The notes below the pieces were generated by a model that searched no databases, had not been told where the DNA came from, and worked only from the letters and a program-made list of their open reading frames with translations. From Spiroplasma phoeniceum (GTDB lineage Bacteria > Bacillota_I > Bacilli_A > Mycoplasmatales > Mycoplasmataceae): 64,000 nucleotides of DNA. A program made the translations under genes and the position numbers. Of the stretch, positions 7,986 through 64,000 are shown piece by piece. How positions within the stretch are numbered: the stretch's first letter is position 1; every line of letters begins with the position of its first letter. The stretch covers positions 744,001-808,000 of the forward strand of contig CP110830.1 of the NCBI GenBank assembly GCA_026239495.1. Direction: 5' to 3'.

Positions 7986-7987
7986 TA

Positions 7988-9055
7988 GACTTCTTGCGAT
8001 ACCTGGTTTTATTATTAAAATATTATTATAAAATATAATTTATGAGGATATTAAATTATGAAATTTGATGAATTTAAAAATATTAATGATAAAGAATGAT
8101 TAAGATTAACAGGAATAAAACAAGATATTTTTAATAAAATGTTAGATATTTTACAAGTAGCTGAAATAGAAAAATTTAAAAAAGGTGGCAAAGCTAATAA
8201 ATTATCACTAGAAAATCGATTATTGATGACTTTATCGTATTGACGAGAATATCGAACTTATTTTCATCTTGGAAAAAATTTCGGAATTAGTGAAGCTAAT
8301 TGTTATCACAATATCAAGTGAATTGAAAATATTTTAATTAAACACCCTGATTTTCAGCAAGTTGCTGGTAAAAAATCGCTAATAAATGATTATTTTAATG
8401 ATAAAACTATTATTATTGATGCTACCGAAAACCCAATCCAACGCCCAAAAAAAGACAAAAACAATCTTATTCTGGTAAAAAGAAAAAACACACTATTAAA
8501 ACACAAGTAATTATCGAACAAGAAACCAAAAAAATTATTGCAACAAGTTTTTCACTTGGTAAAAAACACGATTATGCTTTATTTAAAGAATCAAAAATCG
8601 CAATTTTAAAAAATACCAAATTAATAGTTGATAGTGGTTATCAAGGAATACAAAAAATTCACAATAATGTTATAATGCCCACAAAGAAAACTAAGAAAAA
8701 ACATTTAAATAAAGAACAAAAACAACATAATAGACTAGTTTCAAAAATAAGAATTATTATTGAAAATATTTTTGCTATTCTTAAAAAATTTAAAATTATT
8801 ACAGAAAAATATAGAAATCGTAGAAAACGATTTAGTTTAAGATTTAATTTAATTGCTTCAATTTATAATTTACAATTATTATAGTTATCATAAAAGATTT
8901 ATTTAAAATTAACGAATTTGAATAATAAAATAATTTTTCGTTGTGGCAAAATATTAAATTTTTAAATAAAAAACATAATTAATTAAAATTATAATTTTAT
9001 ATTAACCCCTTTTTACAAATATTTGAAATTATTTTAATGGGTTATGCAAGAAGTC
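7988..9055 (+). mobile_element. IS5-family element subtype B, reference copy
   Basis: 1068 bp between TA dinucleotides. The left end GACTTCTTGCGATACC and the right end GGGTTATGCAAGAAGTC form an imperfect terminal inverted repeat. It is inserted in the orfA/orfB junction of an IS3 element. Confidence 0.92.
8058..8884 (+). CDS. IS5-family transposase, two frames joined by -1 frameshift
   Basis: Frame 1 (8058-8510, 150 residues) has an N-terminal helix-turn-helix region (NKLSLENRLLMTLSYWREY) and the first catalytic Asp (IIIDATE). Near 8448 the sequence CCAAAAAAAG is a slippery A-run; a -1 shift joins a second frame running to 8884 that supplies the second Asp (VDSGYQG) and the Glu with the KYR.RRKRF tail (IIIENIF). 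This is the DDE layout of IS5-family transposases that need frameshifting. A GAGG RBS precedes the ATG. Both frames are open in this copy, which differs from the consensus by a handful of substitutions. Confidence 0.9.
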
Positions 9056-9940
9056 TATTATAAAACAAATTGATTTTATTAAAAATGAATTAAATAACAA
9101 CTCAATCTTACCATTAAGACGATTTTTAAAAATATTATGAATTTCATATGATACATGAAATAAATATAAAAATATTCACGAAAAATATGAATGAAAAATT
9201 GATTACAATATATTAGAAATAATTAAAATAATTTGAAAAAACAATAAAAATAAAAGTCATCGACAAACAAACCTTGATTTGGAAGAAAAAAAATAAAAAT
9301 ATCAGCAAGCACTGTATATCGTTATATGAAGATGTTACAAATATGTTCTGAATTTAGAATTAAACATAAAAAACGAATTAAACATTTTAATAATATGTTA
9401 CATGAACATAAAAAATACCCCTATTTACTTAAACATAATTTTCATTCTAATCAAATGAATCAAAAATGATCAATTGATATTACAATAATTAAAATATATT
9501 CATAATCAGTACATTTATTTTCTATTAAAGACTTATTTAGTAATGCAATTGTTGGATACTCATTAACAGTAAGGCCAAAAGTAAATTGAGTAATTAATTG
9601 TTTAAAACAAAGCTTAATTAATCGAAAAATTAAACCTGATCAATTAATAATTAATTCTGATCAAGGCATTTATTTTACTTCACATGCATATTTTGATTTA
9701 TTAAGAGATTATGGAGTAACTATAAGTATGCCTTGACGTGGAAATTGTTTAGATAATTCACCTATTGAAAATTGGTTTTCAATTTTAAAAACATAAAATA
9801 AAAATATAACAAAATACAAAAATTTTAATGAGCTAAAAAATGTGATAGACAATTATATTGTTGATTATAATAATTATAGAAGGGTTTTAAAATTAAAAAC
9901 GCCTCCAATTCAATTTGAATTAAAAAAAATTTTAAATTAA
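9056..9940 (+). pseudogene. IS3-family transposase OrfB (integrase core), broken
   Basis: Contains SASTVYRYMKML, the rve core with WSIDITIIK, INSDQGIYFTS and the signature GNCLDNSPIENWF. It is inactivated by a 1-nt deletion in an A-run near 9290 and by TAA codons near 9505 and 9796. The gene at 39970-40704 is a second copy. Confidence 0.88.
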
Positions 9941-10167
9941 AAAAATAATTTTCAGTTATTTGAAATTGTGCAAAACTTAATTACTTTATTTTTTTATAAA
10001 CAGTTTTTAAGAGACAGAATTTAATTACTGTTTATCACTTAAATTATATACCTATAAAAATAATTGTCAATAATTTTTAATTTAATTTTATAAATATTTT
10101 AAAAAGAATTCGAAACAAAAAAATGAAAAAATATACACATGTAAAATATGATGAACGAAATTTATTA

Positions 10168-11235
10168 GACTTCTTGCGATACCTGGTTTTATTATTAAAA
10201 TATTATTATAAAATATAATTTATGAGGATATTAAATTATGAAATTTGATGAATTTAAAAATATTAATGATAAAGAATGATTAAGATTAACAGGAATAAAA
10301 CAAGATATTTTTAATAAAATGTTAGATATTTTACAAGTAGCTGAAATAGAAAAATTTAAAAAAGGTGGCAAAGCTAATAAATTATCACTAGAAAATCGAT
10401 TATTGATGACTTTATCGTATTGACGAGAATATCGAACTTATTTTCATCTTGGAAAAAATTTCGGAATTAGTGAAGCTAATTGTTATCGCAATATCAAGTG
10501 AATTGAAGATATTTTAATTAAACACCCTGATTTTCAGCAAGTTGCTGGTAAAAAAGCACTAATAAATGATTATTTTAATGATAAAACTATTATTATTGAT
10601 GCTACCGAAACCCCAATCCAACGCCCAAAAAAAGACAAAAACAATCTTATTCTGGTAAAAAGAAAAAACACACTATTAAAACACAAGTAATTATCGAACA
10701 AGAAACCAAAAAAATTATTGCAACAAGTTTTTCACTTGGCAAAAAACACGATTATGCTTTATTTAAAGAATCAAAAATCGCAATTTTAAAAAATACCAAA
10801 TTAATAGTTGATAGTGGTTATCAAGGAATACAAAAAATTCACAATAATGTTATAATGCCCACAAAGAAAACTAAGAAAAAACATTTAAATAAAGAACAAA
10901 AACAACATAATAGACTAGTTTCAAAAATAAGAATTATTATTGAAAATATTTTTGCTATTCTTAAAAAATTTAAAATTATTACAGAAAAATATAGAAATCG
11001 TAGAAAACGATTTAGTTTAAGATTTAATTTAATTGCTTCAATTTATAATTTACAATTATTATAGTTATCATAAAAGATTTATTTAAAATTAACGAATTTG
11101 AATAATAAAATAATTTTTCGTTGTGGCAAAATATTAAATTTTTAAATAAAAGACATAATTAATTAAAATTATAATTTTATATTAACCCCTTTTTACAAAT
11201 ATTTGAAATTATTTTAATGGGTTATGCAAGAAGTC
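10168..11235 (+). mobile_element. IS5-family element subtype B, complete
   Basis: Complete 1068-bp copy between TA dinucleotides. Its right flank is the interior of another B copy, so the two are in direct tandem. Confidence 0.9.
10238..11064 (+). CDS. IS5-family transposase (-1 frameshift)
   Basis: Same layout as the copy at 8058-8884, with both frames open, the A-run slippery site and the catalytic D-D-E segments present. Confidence 0.88.
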
Positions 11236-11237
11236 TA

Positions 11238-12270
11238 TTATTATAAAATATAATTTATGAGGATATTAAATTATGAAATTTGATGAATTTAAAAATATTA
11301 ATGATAAAGAATGATTAAGATTAACAGGAATAAAACAAGATATTTTTAATAAAATGTTAGATATTTTACAAGTAGCTGAAATAGAAAAATTTAAAAAAGG
11401 TGGCAAAGCTAATAAATTATCACTAGAAAATCGATTATTGATGACTTTATCGTATTGACGAGAATATCGAACTTATTTTCATCTTGGAAAAAATTTCGGA
11501 ATTAGTGAAGCTAATTGTTATCGCAATATCAAGTGAATTGAAGATATTTTAATTAAACACCCTGATTTTCAGCAAGTTGCTGGTAAAAAAGCACTAATAA
11601 ATGATTATTTTAATGATAAAACTATTATTATTGATGTTACCGAAACCCCAATCCAACGCCCAAAAAAAGACAAAAACAATCTTATTCTGGTAAAAAGAAA
11701 AAACACACTATTAAAACACAAGTAATTATCGAACAAGAAACCAAAAAAATTATTGCAACAAGTTTTTCACTTGGTAAAAAACACGATTATGCTTTATTTA
11801 AAGAATCAAAAATCGCAATTTTAAAAAATACCAAATTAATAGTTGATAGTGGTTATCAAGGAATACAAAAAATTCACAATAATGTTATAATGCCCACAAA
11901 GAAAACTAAGAAAAAACATTTAAATAAAGAACAAAAACAACATAATAGAATAGTTTCAAAAATAAGAATTATTATTGAAAATATTTTTGCTATTCTTAAA
12001 AAATTTAAAATTATTACAGAAAAATATAGAAATCGTAGAAAACGATTTAGTTTAAGATTTAATTTAATTGCTTCAATTTATAATTTACAATTATTATAGT
12101 TATCATAAAAGATTTATTTAAAATTAACGAATTTGAATAATAAAATAATTTTTCGTTGTGGCAAAATATTAAATTTTTAAATAAAAGACATAATTAATTA
12201 AAATTATAATTTTATATTAACCCCTTTTTACAAATATTTGAAATTATTTTAATGGGTTATGCAAGAAGTC
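11238..12270 (+). mobile_element. IS5 subtype B copy lacking its left end
   Basis: Starts at position ~36 of the element (TTATTATAAAAT), directly after the right end of the preceding copy. The right end is intact. Confidence 0.85.
11273..12099 (+). CDS. IS5-family transposase (-1 frameshift)
   Basis: Both frames are open (first Asp in IIIDVTE). The left inverted repeat is absent, so the gene could act only in trans. Confidence 0.85.
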
Positions 12271-12272
12271 TA

Positions 12273-12308
12273 ATATTTTAATAATAAAACCAGGTATCGC
12301 AAGAAGTC
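12273..12308 (-). mobile_element. Inverted 36-nt IS5 left end
   Basis: Exact reverse complement of the first 36 bases of subtype B, placed after a right end. It is one of three places where left ends are found inverted. Confidence 0.85.
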
Positions 12309-12534
12309 TATTATTGTGACCCAGGCTCACCAAAACAAAAACCCTTAATTGAAAGAATAAACCGCGAATTTAGGAAACGATACCTTAAGGTAACAGATTT
12401 TAACCTTGTTACTCAAAAAAATAGATTGAGTAGTTGATGTTATAAATGAAAAATTAAGGCCTTGTTTAAATTGAATAACATCTAAAGAATTATTTTTAGA
12501 GAATTTTAAATAAGTTTATTTGAAGTAAAATTTG

Positions 12535-12680
12535 ATAGTATTACAAAAGCTTAGGTTTTATAAAAAATATAAATAAAATAATTAGATAACTTTTTAAAAG
12601 GTTGATTTATCAGTGTTTTAGAAATATATTTAAAATAAAGAATAATTTTTATACCAAAACCTAAATTTTTTCTTACTACC
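12535..12680. mobile_element. MITE-like 146-bp inverted-repeat element (copy 2)
   Basis: Same element as 6715-6865 in the opposite orientation, clearly similar over its length. Terminal repeats begin GATAGTATTAC and end TTCTTACTACC. It is flanked by a perfect 8-bp direct repeat TAAAATTT (12527-12534 and 12681-12688). No gene inside. Confidence 0.8.
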
Positions 12681-12689
12681 TAAAATTTA

Positions 12690-12810
12690 ATAAATTATTT
12701 TTCAGTGTGCTTAAATATGTTTAAAATAGACTAAACTTACAAATATTTTAATTTTTTTTTTAAAAAAATAGTTGCATTTATTTTAAATTATGTTATTATC
12801 ATAAAAACAA
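12690..12810. repeat. Intergenic repeat shared with 25010-25110
   Basis: Starts near AGTGTGCTTAAATATG and runs through AGTTGCATTTATTTTAAA. The same block lies at 25010-25110, and a looser version ends the ISLre2 copy near 5450-5560. Probably a degenerate IS end. No gene seen. Confidence 0.5.
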
Positions 12811-20379: not shown

Positions 20380-20459
20380 AAAAAAAATTATGTATTTGAG
20401 GATTAAGGTAATTTATTAACACTAAATCTATACTGTACCCAGTTTAGTAAGATATAATA

Positions 20460-21532
20460 GACTTCTTGCATAACCTAATCTAATTATTTTAAAATTCCTA
20501 TAAAATATTTTTAAATTAAAATAGAAATTATAGGAGATTAAAATTATGAAATTTGATAAATTTAATTTTATTAATGATAAAGAATTATTGCGATTAACCG
20601 GAGAAAAAAAGCTACTTTTAATAAAATGTTAAATATTTTACAAGTAGGCGAAATAGAAAAATTTAAAAAAGGTGGCAAAACTAATAAATTATCATTAGAA
20701 AACCGGCTACTGATGACTTTATCGTATTGACGAGAATATCGGACTTATTTCCATCTTGCTAAAAGTTTTGATATTAGTGAATCTATTTGTTATCGCAATA
20801 TCAAGTGAATTGAAAATATTTTAATTAAACACTCTGATTTTCAACAACTCGCTGGTAAAAAATCACTAATAAATGATTATTTTAATGATAAAACTATTAT
20901 TATTGATGTTACCGAAACCCCAATCCAACGCCAAAAAAAAGACAAAAACAATCTTATTCTGGTAAAAAGAAAAAACACACCATTAAAACACAAGTAATTA
21001 TCGAACAAGAAATCAAAAAAATTATTGCAACAAGTTTTTCGCTTGGAAAAAAACATGATTATGCTTTATTTAAAGAATCAAAAATCGCAATTTTAAAAAA
21101 TACCAAATTAATAGTTGATAGTGGTTATTAAGGAATTCAAAAAATTCACAATAATTTTCTAATACCTACAAAAAAAACAAAGAAAAACCCTTTAAATAAA
21201 GTACAAAAACAACGTAATAGAATAGTTTTAAAAATGAGAATTATTATTGAAAATATTTTTGCTATTCTTAAAAAATTTAAAATTATTACAGAAAAATATC
21301 GTAATCGAAGAAAACGATTTAGTTTAAGATTTAATTTAATTGCTTCAATTTATAATTTGCAGTTAGCATAGAAGATTTATTTAAAATTAAAAAATTTAAA
21401 TAATAAATTCATTTTTTGTTGTGGCAAAATATTAAATTTTTAAATAAAAAACATAATTAATTAAAATTATGTTTTTCTATTAGTGTCTTTTTACAAATAT
21501 TTGCAATTTTTTAATAGGTTATGCAAGAAGTC
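20460..21532 (+). mobile_element. IS5-family element subtype A
   Basis: Left end GACTTCTTGCATAACC, right end GGTTATGCAAGAAGTC, flanked by TA. It sits between pheT and phage early genes. Confidence 0.9.
20546..21371 (+). pseudogene. IS5-family transposase, broken
   Basis: A 1-nt deletion in GGAGCAAAAAAA near 20612 shifts the frame, and CAA has become TAA in the DSGYQG motif near 21129. Confidence 0.88.
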
Positions 21533-21534
21533 TA

Positions 21535-50585: not shown

Positions 50586-52040
50586 ATGGATAATAAACAA
50601 GAAATAAATTTTAATGAGTTAATTAATAAAACTGAATATTTAAGTTACTTAGAAACAGGAAAATATAAAATATTACAAGAACAAAAATATTATATTGATA
50701 TTCCTTGAATTATTGCTAATAGAAAAGCGGCTCCGTTAACTATTGGACAAGGCTTAATGTTTAATTGTGATAATGATGATACGCAAGATTGAATAGAAGA
50801 ATGATATGAAAAAAACTATGTTTATTCTAAACTATATCAAAATTAATTAGCAAATAGTTTATATGGTCGTAGTGTAATGTATTTATTAAAAACATAAACT
50901 GGCGATTTAACTATTGATGTTGCTCCAATTATTTCAAATGTTCGTATTGCTAAATATTCAGAAATAGAACAATATGCTGAAATGTGAATATTACCTGCTC
51001 AATCTGATTATATGTGATATCAAAGAGTACAATTTTATCCTAGAAAAGCAAAAATAACTTATTATACAGCAAAAGATTTAGAAATTGGAATTTGACAAAC
51101 TTATGGTGAATTAGAAAGTAAATTAAGACCAGTTTCTACAATGTAATATAATACGGGCATTAATATATTACCTATTGTTGAATTTACAAATTTACCTAAA
51201 TTAGTGCATGGTACAAAAACAACAGTAGATGCCACCCCTGATTGTTTACCAGTATTTAATTTAATTAAAGATGTTCAAGATAATATTTATTATAAAAGAA
51301 TTGAAAGAATTATAAATCGTACTCATTTTGTAGGACAAAAAGATACTACTCATTCACTTGTTGATAATGGTAAGGGCGATGAAGAATTAGTAAGTGCTGA
51401 TGCTATTATTACTAGTACAGTTCAACAATATGCTATGACTGGTACTACTGGTGTTGGTTTAATTCATGCTCAACAAAATTATACTGAAATAACTATTGAT
51501 AGTGATTATTCTATGAATATGATTTATAAAGGTGCAGGATATGATTATGATAAATTTGGTTCTGTTAATTATACTAATAAAACACAATCATTAATGAATG
51601 GTAAAAATGATTTACAAACAACTAAAAATAAAAGAGCATTAAGATTACCAAAATTATATAGATTATTTGATTATATATTTAGACATTATAAAAAATGAGA
51701 TAACTTAAATGATGATAATCCAAATAATGATAATGTTAGACCTTATACGATAGAATTTATTGATATAGATATTGTTGATGATATTACACAAGCTGATGTT
51801 ATTGATAAAAGAATTAGTAATTGAACTATTACTCATGTAGAAGCTATTAATAAACAATATAAGGTGACAAATAAAAAAGCACGAATGATGTTTGAAGAAA
51901 TTAAAACAGAACAAAAAGCACAATTAGAGCAAGAAATGTCATATATGGATAATGAAGACAATCAAACAAGAGAAGAAGATATTAAAGGAGATATACAACA
52001 ATGCAAGTACCTAATATTAATAGTATTTTTAAAAACTTAA
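50586..52040 (+). pseudogene. Phage portal protein, three stops
   Basis: 485 codons. Typical portal features: IPWIIANRKAAPLTIGQG at the start, NVRIAKYSEIEQYAEMWI, LPIVEFTNLPKLVHG-type strand and the acidic Glu-rich tail. TAA codons are at 50844, 50895 and 51144; the frame is open after that. The portal is the ring through which terminase packages DNA. RBS AAGAGG precedes the ATG. The next gene starts 39 bases before its stop. Confidence 0.7.
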
Positions 52041-53256
52041 ATGAAAGAATAATGGATAATAGTGTTAGATCTGATTTAACTAAATTAGATATTGATATTA
52101 AAAGTAATTATTTCTTTTTTTCATTTATTATTAAAACTGGTTTAGTAAATATTACTGATAAAGATTTTCAACCTAATAATGGAGTACCACAAAACTTTAC
52201 TCAAATGTCTCAAATATTTACTGGTAAAGAGGGAATTGTTGCACAATGAAAAAATGCAATTAAAATTAGATCTAGACATATCCCTGATATTTGAAATTAT
52301 GATTTTTTACAAAAAGAAAAAGATTCATTTACTTATTTTTTTGATGATTTTAAAAATAGTTTAACTGATAAAGTTAGTTATTTATATATTACTAGTACTG
52401 AAAAAACTTATTTATGAGATGCAACAAAACAAGTTTTTATTAACAAAGAAGAACCTGAAAATAATTATCCAATTAATGATGTGTGAGAAAAAATTAATAA
52501 TGAAAATGATTTTAATGTTTATGTTATTAATTTACAAAAAATTAATAAAGCATTAGATAATTTTGATATTAAAAGAAAATTTAAAGGTGATGCTTATAAA
52601 TGTCATATTGTTAATATTAATGATAGTGTTGAGTTTTCTAAATTAGGTGGTGAAGAATATTTTGGTGAATATAATGATTGATATCTTGATCGTACAATTA
52701 CGGTTGAAACTACTTATAATTTTCAAAGAGAAGATTTTTTAAGATTTTATTTAGTTCCTTTACAATCTGATAAAGAAGATGTTGATGATAATTTATTAAT
52801 TTTTATATCAAATGCTCAACCAAAATATAATGACTTAAATGAATTAGTATATTGAAATATTACTTTTAGTTATGTTAAATATTATATTAATACTACTGGG
52901 CAAACTATTCAACAATTCTTACAATTTTCAGCAGCATGTGAAGTTTATGTAATGCCTAAAATAAGTTGAGATAAATTAGGTATTCCAAAAGATTATGAAA
53001 TTAATGAAAAATTTACTGGTGATAATGGTATTAAAAGTATTCAATTAACTTTATTATGTAATAATGGTTTTACTGCACCAATTATTTTTGGTCGCCCTAT
53101 TGAAAATTTAGGCAAATGAAATGAAAAAGTATATCCACAAAGAAGATTATTTATTGATGATTTAAAAATTCCAGTAGCAGATAGTTTAACAAAATCATCT
53201 AAACCATTAACTACTTATTTATTAACAAATGGAATTCCCGCTATTAATGGTCAATA
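52001..53256 (+). pseudogene. Phage structural protein after the portal, 3' end at IS5 debris
   Basis: 418 codons open from ATG 52001 (RBS AAGGAG): MQVPNINSIFKNLNERI..., rich in aromatic residues and beta-like (YVKYYINTTGQTIQQF, LTTYLLTNGIPAING). It stops where IS5 sequence begins. With 53676-54671 and 55935-56602 it may once have been one very large tail or collar gene. Role inferred from position. Confidence 0.55.
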
Positions 53257-53375
53257 GACTTCTTGCGATACCTGGTTTTATTATTAAAATATTATTATAA
53301 AATATAATTTAATATCCTCATAAATTATATTTTATAATAATATTTTAATAATAAAACCAGGTATCGCAAGAATTC
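53257..53375. mobile_element. 119-bp palindrome of two head-to-head IS5 left ends
   Basis: The first ~55 bases of subtype B are followed by an 9-nt centre and the same ~55 bases inverted (one worn base in the right arm). TA flanks. Confidence 0.85.
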
Positions 53376-53673
53376 TATTGAAAATATTTTTGCTATTCTT
53401 AAAAAATTTAAAATTATTACAGAAAAATATAGAAATCGTAGAAAACGATTTAGTTTAAGATTTAATTTAATTGCTTCAATTTATAATTTACAATTATTAT
53501 AGTTATCATAAAAGATTTATTTAAAATTAACGAATTTAAATAATAAAATAATTTTTCGTTGTGGCAAAATATTAAATTTTTAAATAAAAGACATAATTAA
53601 TTAAAATTATAATTTTATATTAACCCTTTTTTACAAATATTTGAAATTATTTTAATGGGTTATGCAAGAAGTC
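53376..53673 (+). mobile_element. IS5 subtype B 3' fragment
   Basis: From IENIFAILKK in orfB to the intact right end. The 5' two-thirds of the element are missing. Confidence 0.85.
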
Positions 53674-53675
53674 TA

Positions 53676-54671
53676 ATATGATAATTGATTAAAAAGAAAA
53701 CAAGGTCAATCTAATCAATAAATTAAAAAGAATTATGAAGGATATTTAAATACAGATAGAAAATTAACCCAAGCAACTAACCCAAATAATTTGACAATTA
53801 AAGATGTTGCTTTAAATTATAAAGGTAATAAAGTTATTAAAGATTTTGATGTACGAGCAAATGGTTATTTTAAATATAATGTTGATATTGGACATAATAC
53901 AATTAATCCAAGTAAAAATCGTGGTAAATTAAAAGATATGTTAAATTTATTTAGTGTTATGGTTAATCATATTATTTCATTGCCAATAGATATAACAGAA
54001 AGTATCGCATGAACTCAAAGAGATATTCCTATTGTTGGTAAATTTTCAAATGCAATAAGTTTAGGTATTCCTATTTATTGAAAAACTATTGATAATAATA
54101 CTAATAATTTATATCCAAATATTAAAACAGGAATTCCTTTATTTATTGGTAAAGCAAATTATACATTTTATGATGAAAGTTATTGACCTATTATTGAAGA
54201 TAGTACTAATCCAAAAGCAAAAAATCAAGGTAATATCCCTTTAGATGCATTTAGATATAATACTCAAGATGAGGTTAATGATATCATCGGTGCTAGTGAA
54301 AGTAATACAAGTTGAGCATTTACTTTAACCGATAAAATAACAGCATCAAGATGAAATAAAAAAACAAAACAAGAAATAAGTAAACAAAATTGAATTAGTA
54401 GTGTTTTTATTCCTGAAATTTATAAACATGAAGATAAAGATTATTTATTTTTAATGAATGAAGAAAGTATATCATTACCAACTATTTTAAGAGAAGATGA
54501 GGTAAAAACCGATATTATTGGTAGTGGTAAATATATTATTGATGCAGTTGGTTTTTATAATTTAGGTAAAACTGCCTGTCGTGTTTATATGTTTTCAGAT
54601 GATATTGATTTATTTGATCCATATTCAATTATGAGTTATTTTGTTAGTTTACAAACTACAAGTTTATATAA
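53676..54671 (+). pseudogene. Phage tail protein fragment
   Basis: Readable from KNYEGYLNTDRKLTQATNP through IIGSGKYIIDAVGFYNLGKT to the IS5 at 54674; one TAA near 53720. Aromatic and beta-rich like phage tail proteins. No start of its own. Confidence 0.55.
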
Positions 54672-54673
54672 TA

Positions 54674-54847
54674 GACTTCTTGCGTAACCTAATCTAATTG
54701 TTTAAAAATTCCTATAAAATATTTTTAAATTAAAATAGAAATTATAGGAGATTAAAATTATGAAATTTGATAAATTTAATTTTATTAATGATAAAGAATT
54801 ATTGCGATTAACCGGAGCAAAAAAGCTACTTTTAATAAAATTTTAAA
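54674..54847 (+). mobile_element. IS5 subtype A 5' fragment
   Basis: The first 174 bases of subtype A, including the transposase start. It abuts the next element's right end. Confidence 0.85.
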
Positions 54848-54849
54848 TA

Positions 54850-55932
54850 GACTTCTTGCATAACCCATTAAAATAATTTCAAATATTTGTAAAAAAGGGT
54901 TAATATAAAATTATAATTTTAATTAATTATGTCTTTTATTTAAAAATTTAATATTTTGCCACAACGAAAAATTATTTTATTATTCAAATTTGTTAATTTT
55001 AAATAAATCTTTTATGATAACTATAATAATTGTAAATTATAAATTGAAGCAATTAAATTAAATCTTAAACTAAATCGTTTTCTACGATTTCTATATTTTT
55101 CTGTAATAATTTTAAATTTTTTAAGAATAGCAAAAATATTTTCAATAATAATTCTTATTTTTGAAACTAGTCTATTATGTTGTTTTTGTTCTTTATTTAA
55201 ATGTTTTTTCTTAGTTTTCTTTGTGGGCATTATAACATTATTGTGAATTTTTTGAATTCCTTGATAACCACTATCAACTATTAATTTGGTATTTTTTAAA
55301 ATTGCGATTTTTGATTATTTAAATAAAGCATAATCATGTTTTTTTCAAGCGAAAAACTTTTTGCAATAATTTTTTTGGTTTCTTGTTCGATAATTACTTG
55401 TGTTTTAATAGTGTGTTTTTTCTTTTTACCAGAATAAGATTGTTTTTGTCTTTTTTTGGGCGTTGGATTGGGGTCTCGGTAACATCAATAATAACAGTTT
55501 TATCATTAAAATAATCATTTATTAGTGATTTTTTGCCAGCGAGTTGTTGAAAATCAGAGTGTTTAATTAAAATATCTTCAATTCACTTGATATTGCGATA
55601 ACAACTAGATTCACTAATATAAAAACTTTTAGCAAGATGAAAATAAGTCCGATATTCTCGTCAATGTGATAAAGTCGTCGGTAGCCGATTTTCTAGTGAT
55701 AATTTATTAGTTTTGCCACCTTTTTTAAATTTTTCTATTTAAGCTAATTGTAAAATATTTAACATTTTATTAAAAGTATCTTTTTTTGCTCCGGTTAATC
55801 GCAATAATTCTTTATCATTAATAAAATTAAATTTATCAAATTTCATAATTTTAATCTCCTATAATTTCTATTTTAATTTAAAAATATTTTATAGGAATTT
55901 TAAAATAATTAGATTAGGTTATGCAAGAAGTC
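54850..55932 (-). mobile_element. Hybrid IS5 element: B right part, A left part
   Basis: The right end and the 3' half match subtype B; from about 55250-55340 onward it matches subtype A, including the A-type left end. A recombinant between subtypes. Together with 54674-54847, both outer ends of the complex are left ends. Confidence 0.85.
55021..55846 (-). pseudogene. IS5-family transposase, hybrid, broken
   Basis: Has a 1-nt loss in the CATGTTTTTTTC run near 55340, GAA-to-TAA at 55741, and another TAA near 55318. Confidence 0.85.
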
Positions 55933-55934
55933 TA

Positions 55935-62829: not shown

Positions 62830-63314
62830 TTATTTACTTTCATAATTAGCAATAATAATGGCATCTCGTAAATGATTATTTATTTTTTGATTATTATAAA
62901 ATCAACCCTTACCATATTGATAAGTTAAATTATTATCTTTATCAAATTCTCATAAACAACTATCATTATATTTACTCAAATTCTCCATATTTTTAATCAC
63001 TGATTTAGTATGTTTTGGTGATACTCAATTAAATTTAATTTCTGAAATCATTTTAAATCGTATAATAAGGTCTTAAATTACACCCAATAATCTTAATAAA
63101 TCGTCTCTATCTTTTGAACCATTAGCAGATATAAATAGACAATTTTCAATATTTAAAATAAATTCTGTATATTTTCCTATTATTGTTAATATAAAATCTT
63201 TTTGGTTTAATCATCATTTATCAGTAAATTCATTTTTTCAATTAATTTATTATCTTCAAAAACAACAATACCAGTAGTACCAGTTCCTGATGGATCAATA
63301 CCTATTTTTATCAT
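62830..63314 (-). pseudogene. RuvC-like phage Holliday junction resolvase, broken
   Basis: MIKIGIDPSGTGTTGIVVF gives the first catalytic Asp and the Gly-rich strand. WVSPKHTKSVI and NNHLRDAIIIANYESK give the C-terminal helix with the last Asp. It resolves recombination or packaging branches. A 1-nt frameshift near 63233 and a TAA at ~63073 inactivate it. It overlaps both neighbours, as expected for an early operon recT-resolvase-methylase. Confidence 0.75.
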
Positions 63315-64000
63315 GCGCATACATCCTCATCATTGTTATTATTAGCTACTGATACTACATTTGAGATATCTTCTTCTTTAACTACATTATCTTTTGTGTC
63401 CGCTATTTCTGTATAAGATTGGGAATTTATATTATTTGATAATTGTTCATCGCTCATCTGCCCCCTATTTTTGGCAACAGTAATATCATTAAAAGGTATA
63501 TAATCAAAATTACCATCTTCTTTTATTTGTTTTTCATCTAAATCAATATTATTAATATCAACGCCTAATTCTTGGGCTAATTTACGATATAATTTTGCTT
63601 CAACCATTTCTTTTGGTCATTTATTTCAAGGTGAAAAATCACTATTGCCGCTTGGACTACTACTTTTTAAACGGTCAATATCTGCTTTTCTTAATAAAAT
63701 GCCTTTTGTTTCACCAGTTAAACGATTAACCCCAAAAGCATAAGCACCAATAATGTTTTCATATTGACTTGTATTTGTCATAAAATCTATTTCATGTAAT
63801 TTTGGTTTTTGTAAATCAGTATCTCATACAAATTTTTCATTTTTATAAATAATTCCTCGTTTTAACATTCAATGTTCTTGTTCCATTCTTTTTTGAAAAA
63901 CAGAACTATCAATAATAGTTGTTAATTTATTTTTAAATGGAATAATATTAAAATATTTTCCAAATATTAAACCTTTATTACTTAAATTAATAATTCCTAG
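63308..64000 (-). CDS. recT: RecT-family single-strand annealing protein (5' end beyond window)
   Basis: About 230 C-terminal residues are visible: IIGAYAFGVNRLTGETKG, LLRKADIDRLKSSSPSG and FSPWNKWPKEMVEAKLYRKL, a RecT hallmark. A long acidic low-complexity tail follows (VVKEEDISNVVSVANNNNDED). With UGA as Trp it ends at TAA 63308-63310, overlapping the resolvase start. It anneals complementary strands during phage recombination. Confidence 0.85.

Follow-up and report, generated by a model that had tools for sequence, protein, structure and literature searches.

Two left ends of an insertion sequence (IS) that face each other around a short centre raise the question of how such a structure can arise and how it can move. 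The palindrome under study is located in a window of 64 kb, by which we mean the whole stretch of DNA that was analysed (positions 744001-808000; the genome is 99.75% complete and consists of one contig with 2,179,570 bases). The LepA protein (TIGR01393) of this genome shares 92% identity with that of Spiroplasma poulsonii MSRO_BK, the nearest named match of the 80 retained from a collection that may lack the window's own record. Open reading frames (ORFs) were read with genetic code 4 (TGA = Trp), which opens long ORFs. A preliminary description of the window had reported a 119-bp palindrome of two IS5 left ends at 53257-53375, and our analysis confirmed it with a small shift. The palindrome comprises 121 bp (53256-53376), in which two 56-nt left ends of an element of type A surround a 9-nt centre, TGAGGATAT. 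The sole mismatch concerns the right tip (GAATTCT versus GAAGTCT). This was the only palindrome in the 64-kb window to pass a scan for arms of at least 25 nt with a loop of at most 16 nt and at most three mismatches. It belongs to a longer unit that lacks most of the transposase gene:

53256..53376, unstranded: palindrome of A-left against A-left (56 + 9 + inverted 56 nt)
53256..53674, plus strand: class II unit of 419 bp, consisting of the palindrome, IS-A positions 773-1070, and the right end
53377..53674, plus strand: 3' fragment of IS-A, terminating in the right end
53253..53255, plus strand: AAT, left 3-bp repeat of the unit
53675..53677, plus strand: AAT, right 3-bp repeat of the unit

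The ORFs 52001-53254 and 53791-54687 adjoin this unit and an IS complex described below, and judged by eye their frames seem to run on across both inserts. A label of phage-like structural genes for the surroundings of the unit was withdrawn, because the neighbouring ORFs gave no match in PHROGs or Pfam (52001-53254 and 53791-54684) save for one to an unnamed family (51204-52037, E 0.0006).

Copies of two related elements of the IS5 family occur frequently in the window, namely type A (IS-A, 1070 bp) and type B (IS-B, about 1075 bp). Complete copies are located at:

7987..9056, plus strand: complete IS-A of the parent type, 1070 bp, flanked by ATT and ATT
20459..21533, plus strand: complete IS-B, 1075 bp

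The transposase of IS-A is split into ORF1 (150 amino acids) and an ORF2 in the -1 frame, which overlap at a run of seven A. This run, CCCAAAAAAAGAC (window 8440-8460), recurs in further copies of IS-A within the window and is a probable programmed frameshift site for the transposase. With E 2.4e-17 and 2.1e-33, respectively, the two ORFs match NCBIfam NF033581 (`IS5 family transposase'); both scores stay under the curated cut-off for whole proteins, as expected for queries that are halves. Pfam HTH_Tnp_4 and DDE_Tnp_4 are matched above the cut-off. The IS5 label given earlier therefore holds for the transposase, and the matches of the split ORFs to NF033581 and DDE_Tnp_4 identify it as an IS5-type DDE enzyme. 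Matching 3-bp ANT triplets (AAT, ATT, or AGT) flank nine of the ten complete IS-A copies in the window and two of the four IS-B copies, one of the latter holding an insert. A 3-bp ANT target duplication presumably links the parent elements to the ISL2-like group of the IS5 family. Across the genome, exact end matches number 278 for A-left and 266 for A-right, palindrome arms included.

A DNA search of the genome with the palindrome revealed at least 11 scattered A-left palindromes, 10 of them full-length and one interrupted. Such searches score the best 40 candidates per genome, and the counts are therefore minima. Class I consists of solo palindromes of 121 bp (L003, L004, L007, L008, L009), which carry AAT on both sides in all five cases. 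In class II (L001, which is the window copy, L002, L005, L006, L010, L016), the palindrome is followed by a 3' part of IS-A with its right end, so that the units span 213-419 bp. The inner tip of the palindrome meets the IS sequence at an ANT triplet in all six units, and the triplets outside the whole unit match in five, with L010 as the exception. L002 and L005 have their junction and one base variant in common. A C at position 43 is present in one arm of L009 and in both arms of L010, and an exact-pattern search of the genome found no other left end with it. This distribution fits a correction of one arm by the other, that is, arm-to-arm copying. The A-left family may descend from one founder. 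We considered the window palindrome for this role, as its symmetry apparently extends into the flanks (53247-53385), and dropped the idea since the target triplet together with some chance matches can account for the extra symmetric letters. As a side observation, the flanks of L006 and L008 resemble, by eye, the ORF 63308-63886 on the minus strand of the window, which matches a RecT-like single-stranded DNA annealing protein (phrog_148, E 3.2e-11).

The preliminary description had counted three independent cases of head-to-head ends, all with the same polarity. This left-only polarity does not hold: a synthetic B-left/A-right palindrome query and its follow-up led to right-end palindromes at five places (L051, L052, L053, L054, L062), and we discarded the notion of a left-only phenomenon. 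L053 is an A-right palindrome of 130 bp with identical arms, L062 a B-right palindrome of 144 bp whose arms are identical outside the loop, and L051, L052, and L054 are A-right/B-right hybrids or mosaics. In L054, the palindrome is followed by IS-A positions 594-1070. The same two variants occur in both arms of L053. Elsewhere in the genome their exact pattern is found once, and there it belongs to the right end of a fragment of IS-A (positions 428-1070) at 663941. In a separate arrangement at L055 (1-1551), the left tip of an inverted IS-A abuts position 428 of a second IS-A, and the second bears the right-end variants of L053.

For each of the four ends, we listed the inverted repeats located no more than 130 nt away and ranked them by stem and then by short loop. 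Counted from the tip, the top-ranked repeats are located at 49-73 (A-left), 58-73 (A-right), 27-49 (B-left), and 58-87 (B-right); for B-left, a second repeat ties on the 7-bp stem with a longer loop. In four of four ends, the palindrome centre is the centre of the top native repeat, at 61.0, 65.5, 38.0, and 72.5 nt from the tip, respectively. In the complete window copies, these repeats are found at:

8035..8059, plus strand: native hairpin of A-left, 8-bp stem and 9-nt loop, centre of the A-left palindromes
8984..8999, plus strand: native inverted repeat of A-right, 8-bp stem without loop, centre of the A-right palindrome
20485..20507, plus strand: native inverted repeat of B-left, 7-bp stem and 9-nt loop, centre of the B-left palindrome
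21447..21476, plus strand: native inverted repeat of B-right, 12-bp stem and 6-nt loop, centre of the B-right palindrome

The B-left case had been predicted. A synthetic query for a B-left palindrome with 60-nt arms found none in the genome. The hairpin rule predicted a B-left palindrome of 75 bp beforehand, and a matching pattern was found at one place in the genome (L072), while the reversed control of the pattern had zero genome matches. L072 is a solo B-left palindrome with ATT/ATT flanks and brings the end palindromes to a total of 17, of A-left, A-right, B-left, B-right, and A/B hybrid kind. It carries one variant in both arms, which is also present at eight other places. The arm variants of L053 and L072 suggest that both arms were derived from one end, and the hybrids indicate that switching between different copies occurs, too.

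The stems at the palindrome centres are AT-rich and 7-12 bp long. Among the 70 inverted repeats of IS-A with a stem of at least 8 bp, only two have a loop of at most 9 nt, and both serve as centres. With stems of at least 7 bp, IS-A has 205 and IS-B 253 inverted repeats, only three of which are local (loop of at most 9 nt) in each element. For one of the three in IS-A (829-847) and one in IS-B (919-945, 9-bp stem) no palindrome is known so far, and the hairpin rule would predict palindromes of about 465 bp (A-right) and about 287 bp (B-right), respectively; the other two of IS-B are used. Since our palindrome searches favour short-loop products, the hairpin rule is suggestive rather than cleanly tested. 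The A-left hairpin encloses, by eye, an AGGA and stops at the ATG (8035-8061 with the ATG). The enclosed motif is a likely ribosome-binding site of the transposase, which the hairpin could also hide.

Matching ANT triplets flank 13 of the 17 elements. As AAT and ATT make up nearly all of the flanks, about half would match by chance, and the probability of the observed number is about 0.025 (binomial, two common triplets). Among the right-end palindromes, the triplets match at L051 and L053 and fail at L052 and L062, as they do at L010. At L054 they match around the palindrome and differ around the unit, which is why this locus was counted as failing. Empty sites, here paralogues with 95-99% identity across the junction, were found for four of the 17 site queries, namely L004, L007, the L002 unit, and the L016 unit. 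For L004 and L007, the site belongs to a gene of IS3 type (match to NF033516 below the cut-off, E 3.3e-9), and the L002 unit is inserted in an IS-B copy whose empty form exists. For the remaining 13 queries no close unoccupied paralogue was found, eight of these being without any match; weaker matches at 81-87% (L005, L051, L052) and 66% (L008, L009) were not counted. The earlier suggestion that the palindrome could itself be mobilised through its two recognised left ends is thus supported by the solo 121-bp copies, all five with 3-bp repeats and two with an unoccupied paralogue.

The other two head-to-head sites of the window exist as well, each at slightly shifted positions, and do not support one common cause for all three:

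12272..12309, minus strand: nucleotides 1-38 of the A left end, inverted and placed after a right end (at 12271), in a nested cluster (10167-12309)
54673..54848, plus strand: first 176 nt of IS-B, with the left end outward
54849..55933, minus strand: inverted chimeric IS, which provides the outer B-left end

The cluster at 10167-12309 is composed of an IS-A, an IS-A without its first 35 nt, and, in inverted orientation, nucleotides 1-38 of a left end. On either side of it lies a part of an IS30-type element, and between these two parts about 737 bp are absent compared to L072; the IS30-type assignment comes from a relative in L072 that matches NF033563. This arrangement looks like a nested insertion cluster with a deletion. 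An insertion hot spot at positions 36-38 of the left end was also considered and dropped, because the exact companion junction, a right end joined to left-end position 36, is unique in the genome, with its one occurrence at the 12272 site. A repeat of roughly 150 bp with the ends GGTAGTAAGAAAA...AAAACCT is present at L016 (around 1600-1750), in the window (12540-12700), and at L052 (1160-1330), in one case inserted inside a palindrome; it possibly represents the ends of IS30-type elements or else a MITE of the same type. The complex at 54673-55933 does have left ends at both outer borders, as had been described, and they are of type B. Its inverted IS is B-type in the 5' and A-type in the 3' part with a mosaic zone between them (largely of type B as far as about position 461 and of type A beyond about 476, with 11 of 126 diagnostic sites misfitting), a pattern that points to recombination between the two IS types. 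AAT is found outside both left ends. The complex may have moved as a left-left unit or may stem from a nested insertion with loss of the remaining IS-B.

We consider it probable that the end palindromes are palindromic MITEs that were born by fold-back priming at a native hairpin and then moved by transposase. In a first step, a single strand with one IS end would fold at the native hairpin near this end; the fold would prime a polymerase, and the end would be copied to its tip, resulting in an end, a hairpin, and an inverted end. This step would have taken place independently at no fewer than four different IS ends. In a second step, suggested by the repeats and the empty sites, the IS transposase would pair the two identical ends in trans and move the palindrome, with duplication of a 3-bp ANT target. 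Finally, a palindrome that had landed within an IS could contribute its outer tip, which would move together with the right end of this IS as a longer unit; the window copy (53256-53674) would be such a unit. A palindrome still inside an IS with both IS halves was not seen. We infer the mechanism as well as the mobility from the sequence of one genome.

For the third step alone, a homologous deletion between the left end of an IS and a palindrome within the same IS is a possible, if doubtful, source of the composite units. The 56-nt left arms are direct repeats, and the product would be identical. But L002 and L005, which occupy two places, have the same junction and the same variant, and an IS-B with a known empty form houses the L002 unit; together this argues that the units move as such. 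Moreover, L054 contains a right-end palindrome and has no left-end arm to recombine.

As for the birth of the palindromes, recombination between inverted copies had been one of the two mechanisms proposed in the preliminary description, and it persists as the main rival to fold-back priming, albeit an unlikely one. In its specific form, a deletion would occur at a short repeat between nearby IS copies in opposite orientation; since a native inverted repeat within the IS is a direct repeat between inverted copies, the deletion product looks identical. Inverted IS pairs are indeed common in the window, and the A/B hybrids L051, L052, and L054 show a switching between different copies. However, such a deletion could use any of the 205 (A) or 253 (B) repeats, of which only three each are local, an argument that is weakened by the blindness of our searches to products with long spacers. 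In addition, the exact variant pattern of the L053 arms is found at only one other place.

The other proposed mechanism, one-ended transposition or an intramolecular insertion of the IS into itself, would produce head-to-head ends directly. The junction of the inner palindrome tip to the IS at an ANT triplet in all six composite A-left units agrees with it. But the inner junction of the palindrome itself is at the native hairpin and not at an IS tip, the solo palindromes have matching 3-bp repeats in five of five cases, and right-end palindromes are present. We therefore rejected a programmed one-ended transposition, which is not needed and appears very improbable. An assembly artefact is scarcely conceivable and was rejected, given 17 palindromes of five kinds with distinct flanks and variants, 13 of them with matching 3-bp repeats, in a one-contig assembly of 99.75% completeness.

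The assignment to the MITEs rests on several features of the palindromes (75-144 bp) and the composite units (213-605 bp, with only the 3' part of the IS). Neither contains a complete transposase gene, their terminal inverted repeats (TIRs) are common with the resident IS in that the tips match A or B ends, and their target duplication is of the parent type (ANT match in 13 of 17). Movement in trans by the parent transposase would account for the dispersed near-identical copies. The usual explanation of a MITE is a transposon that has lost its interior, and the Cardinium MITE discussed below is of this kind. The pairing of two copies of the same IS end by a transposase is familiar from the composite transposons Tn10 and Tn5; these carry two IS copies plus cargo, whereas the palindromes described here are two ends alone. 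REPINs belong to another transposase class and to extragenic REP palindromes, and they are not known to have DDE transposon ends or an ANT duplication. In common with our elements, their mobile unit contains one short sequence twice, in inverted orientation. REPINs are mobilised by RAYT transposases (PMC3116915).

According to the available part of the source, a Cardinium MITE of an IS982-family element is a shortened element similar to its parent in the inverted repeats and in the part adjoining the left repeat (PMC9769881). Like this MITE, the palindromes are short, without transposase gene, bear the ends of a resident IS, and coexist with intact parent copies; unlike it, they have the same end on both sides and are palindromic around its own hairpin. 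The PATEs of Haloquadratum walsbyi are likewise small, transposase-free, palindromic, and transposon-derived, and in the portion of the paper at hand they are of IS605 type, with neither TIRs nor target duplication (PMC3119063). Our elements differ from them in being palindromic in their entirety and in having TIRs, 3-bp ANT repeats, and an origin from an IS5-family transposon with its transposase. Fold-back inversions in yeast, in the accessible excerpt, also represent inverted duplications via single-stranded DNA hairpins (PMC7467729), but those are chromosomal rearrangements and not mobile elements.

The palindrome family is known from one genome. Among the matches listed for 13 congeners there was no full-length A-left palindrome. 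The related genome G008 gave many partial matches, the best of which covered positions 27-121 among the best 40 of 269 candidates, and a scan of ten 20-kb stretches of it gave palindrome arms of 25-28 nt only, none of which, judged by eye, consisted of IS ends. Searches of plasmids and phages with the palindrome DNA, and of genome contigs and viral contigs with the exact pattern of the palindrome centre, gave no match. An IS-rich Spiroplasma has only four IS5 copies, according to the part of the report that was accessible (PMC13375240). Among the titles and abstract openings listed in a literature search that reached few subscription papers, none concerned palindromic elements made of one IS end; the literature covered included a MITE review (PMC10969869) and PMC4853749. 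The novelty of such elements is provisional.

Use of two equal ends by a transposase is not a given, since piggyBat elements built with a pair of left ends or a pair of right ends had no activity in the part of the study available (PMC11707139). The palindromes described here suggest that such a pair, be it of left or of right ends, can serve an IS5-type transposase. By a modest preference, we extend this to the view that any IS end with a local inverted repeat of approximately 7 bp or more may be a birth site, so that one end would suffice and the birth of a MITE might be predicted from the sequence of the IS. Hairpin-centred palindromes have come from all four ends of the two IS elements, one of these palindromes having been predicted beforehand, and this would make MITE birth a testable, sequence-predictable process.
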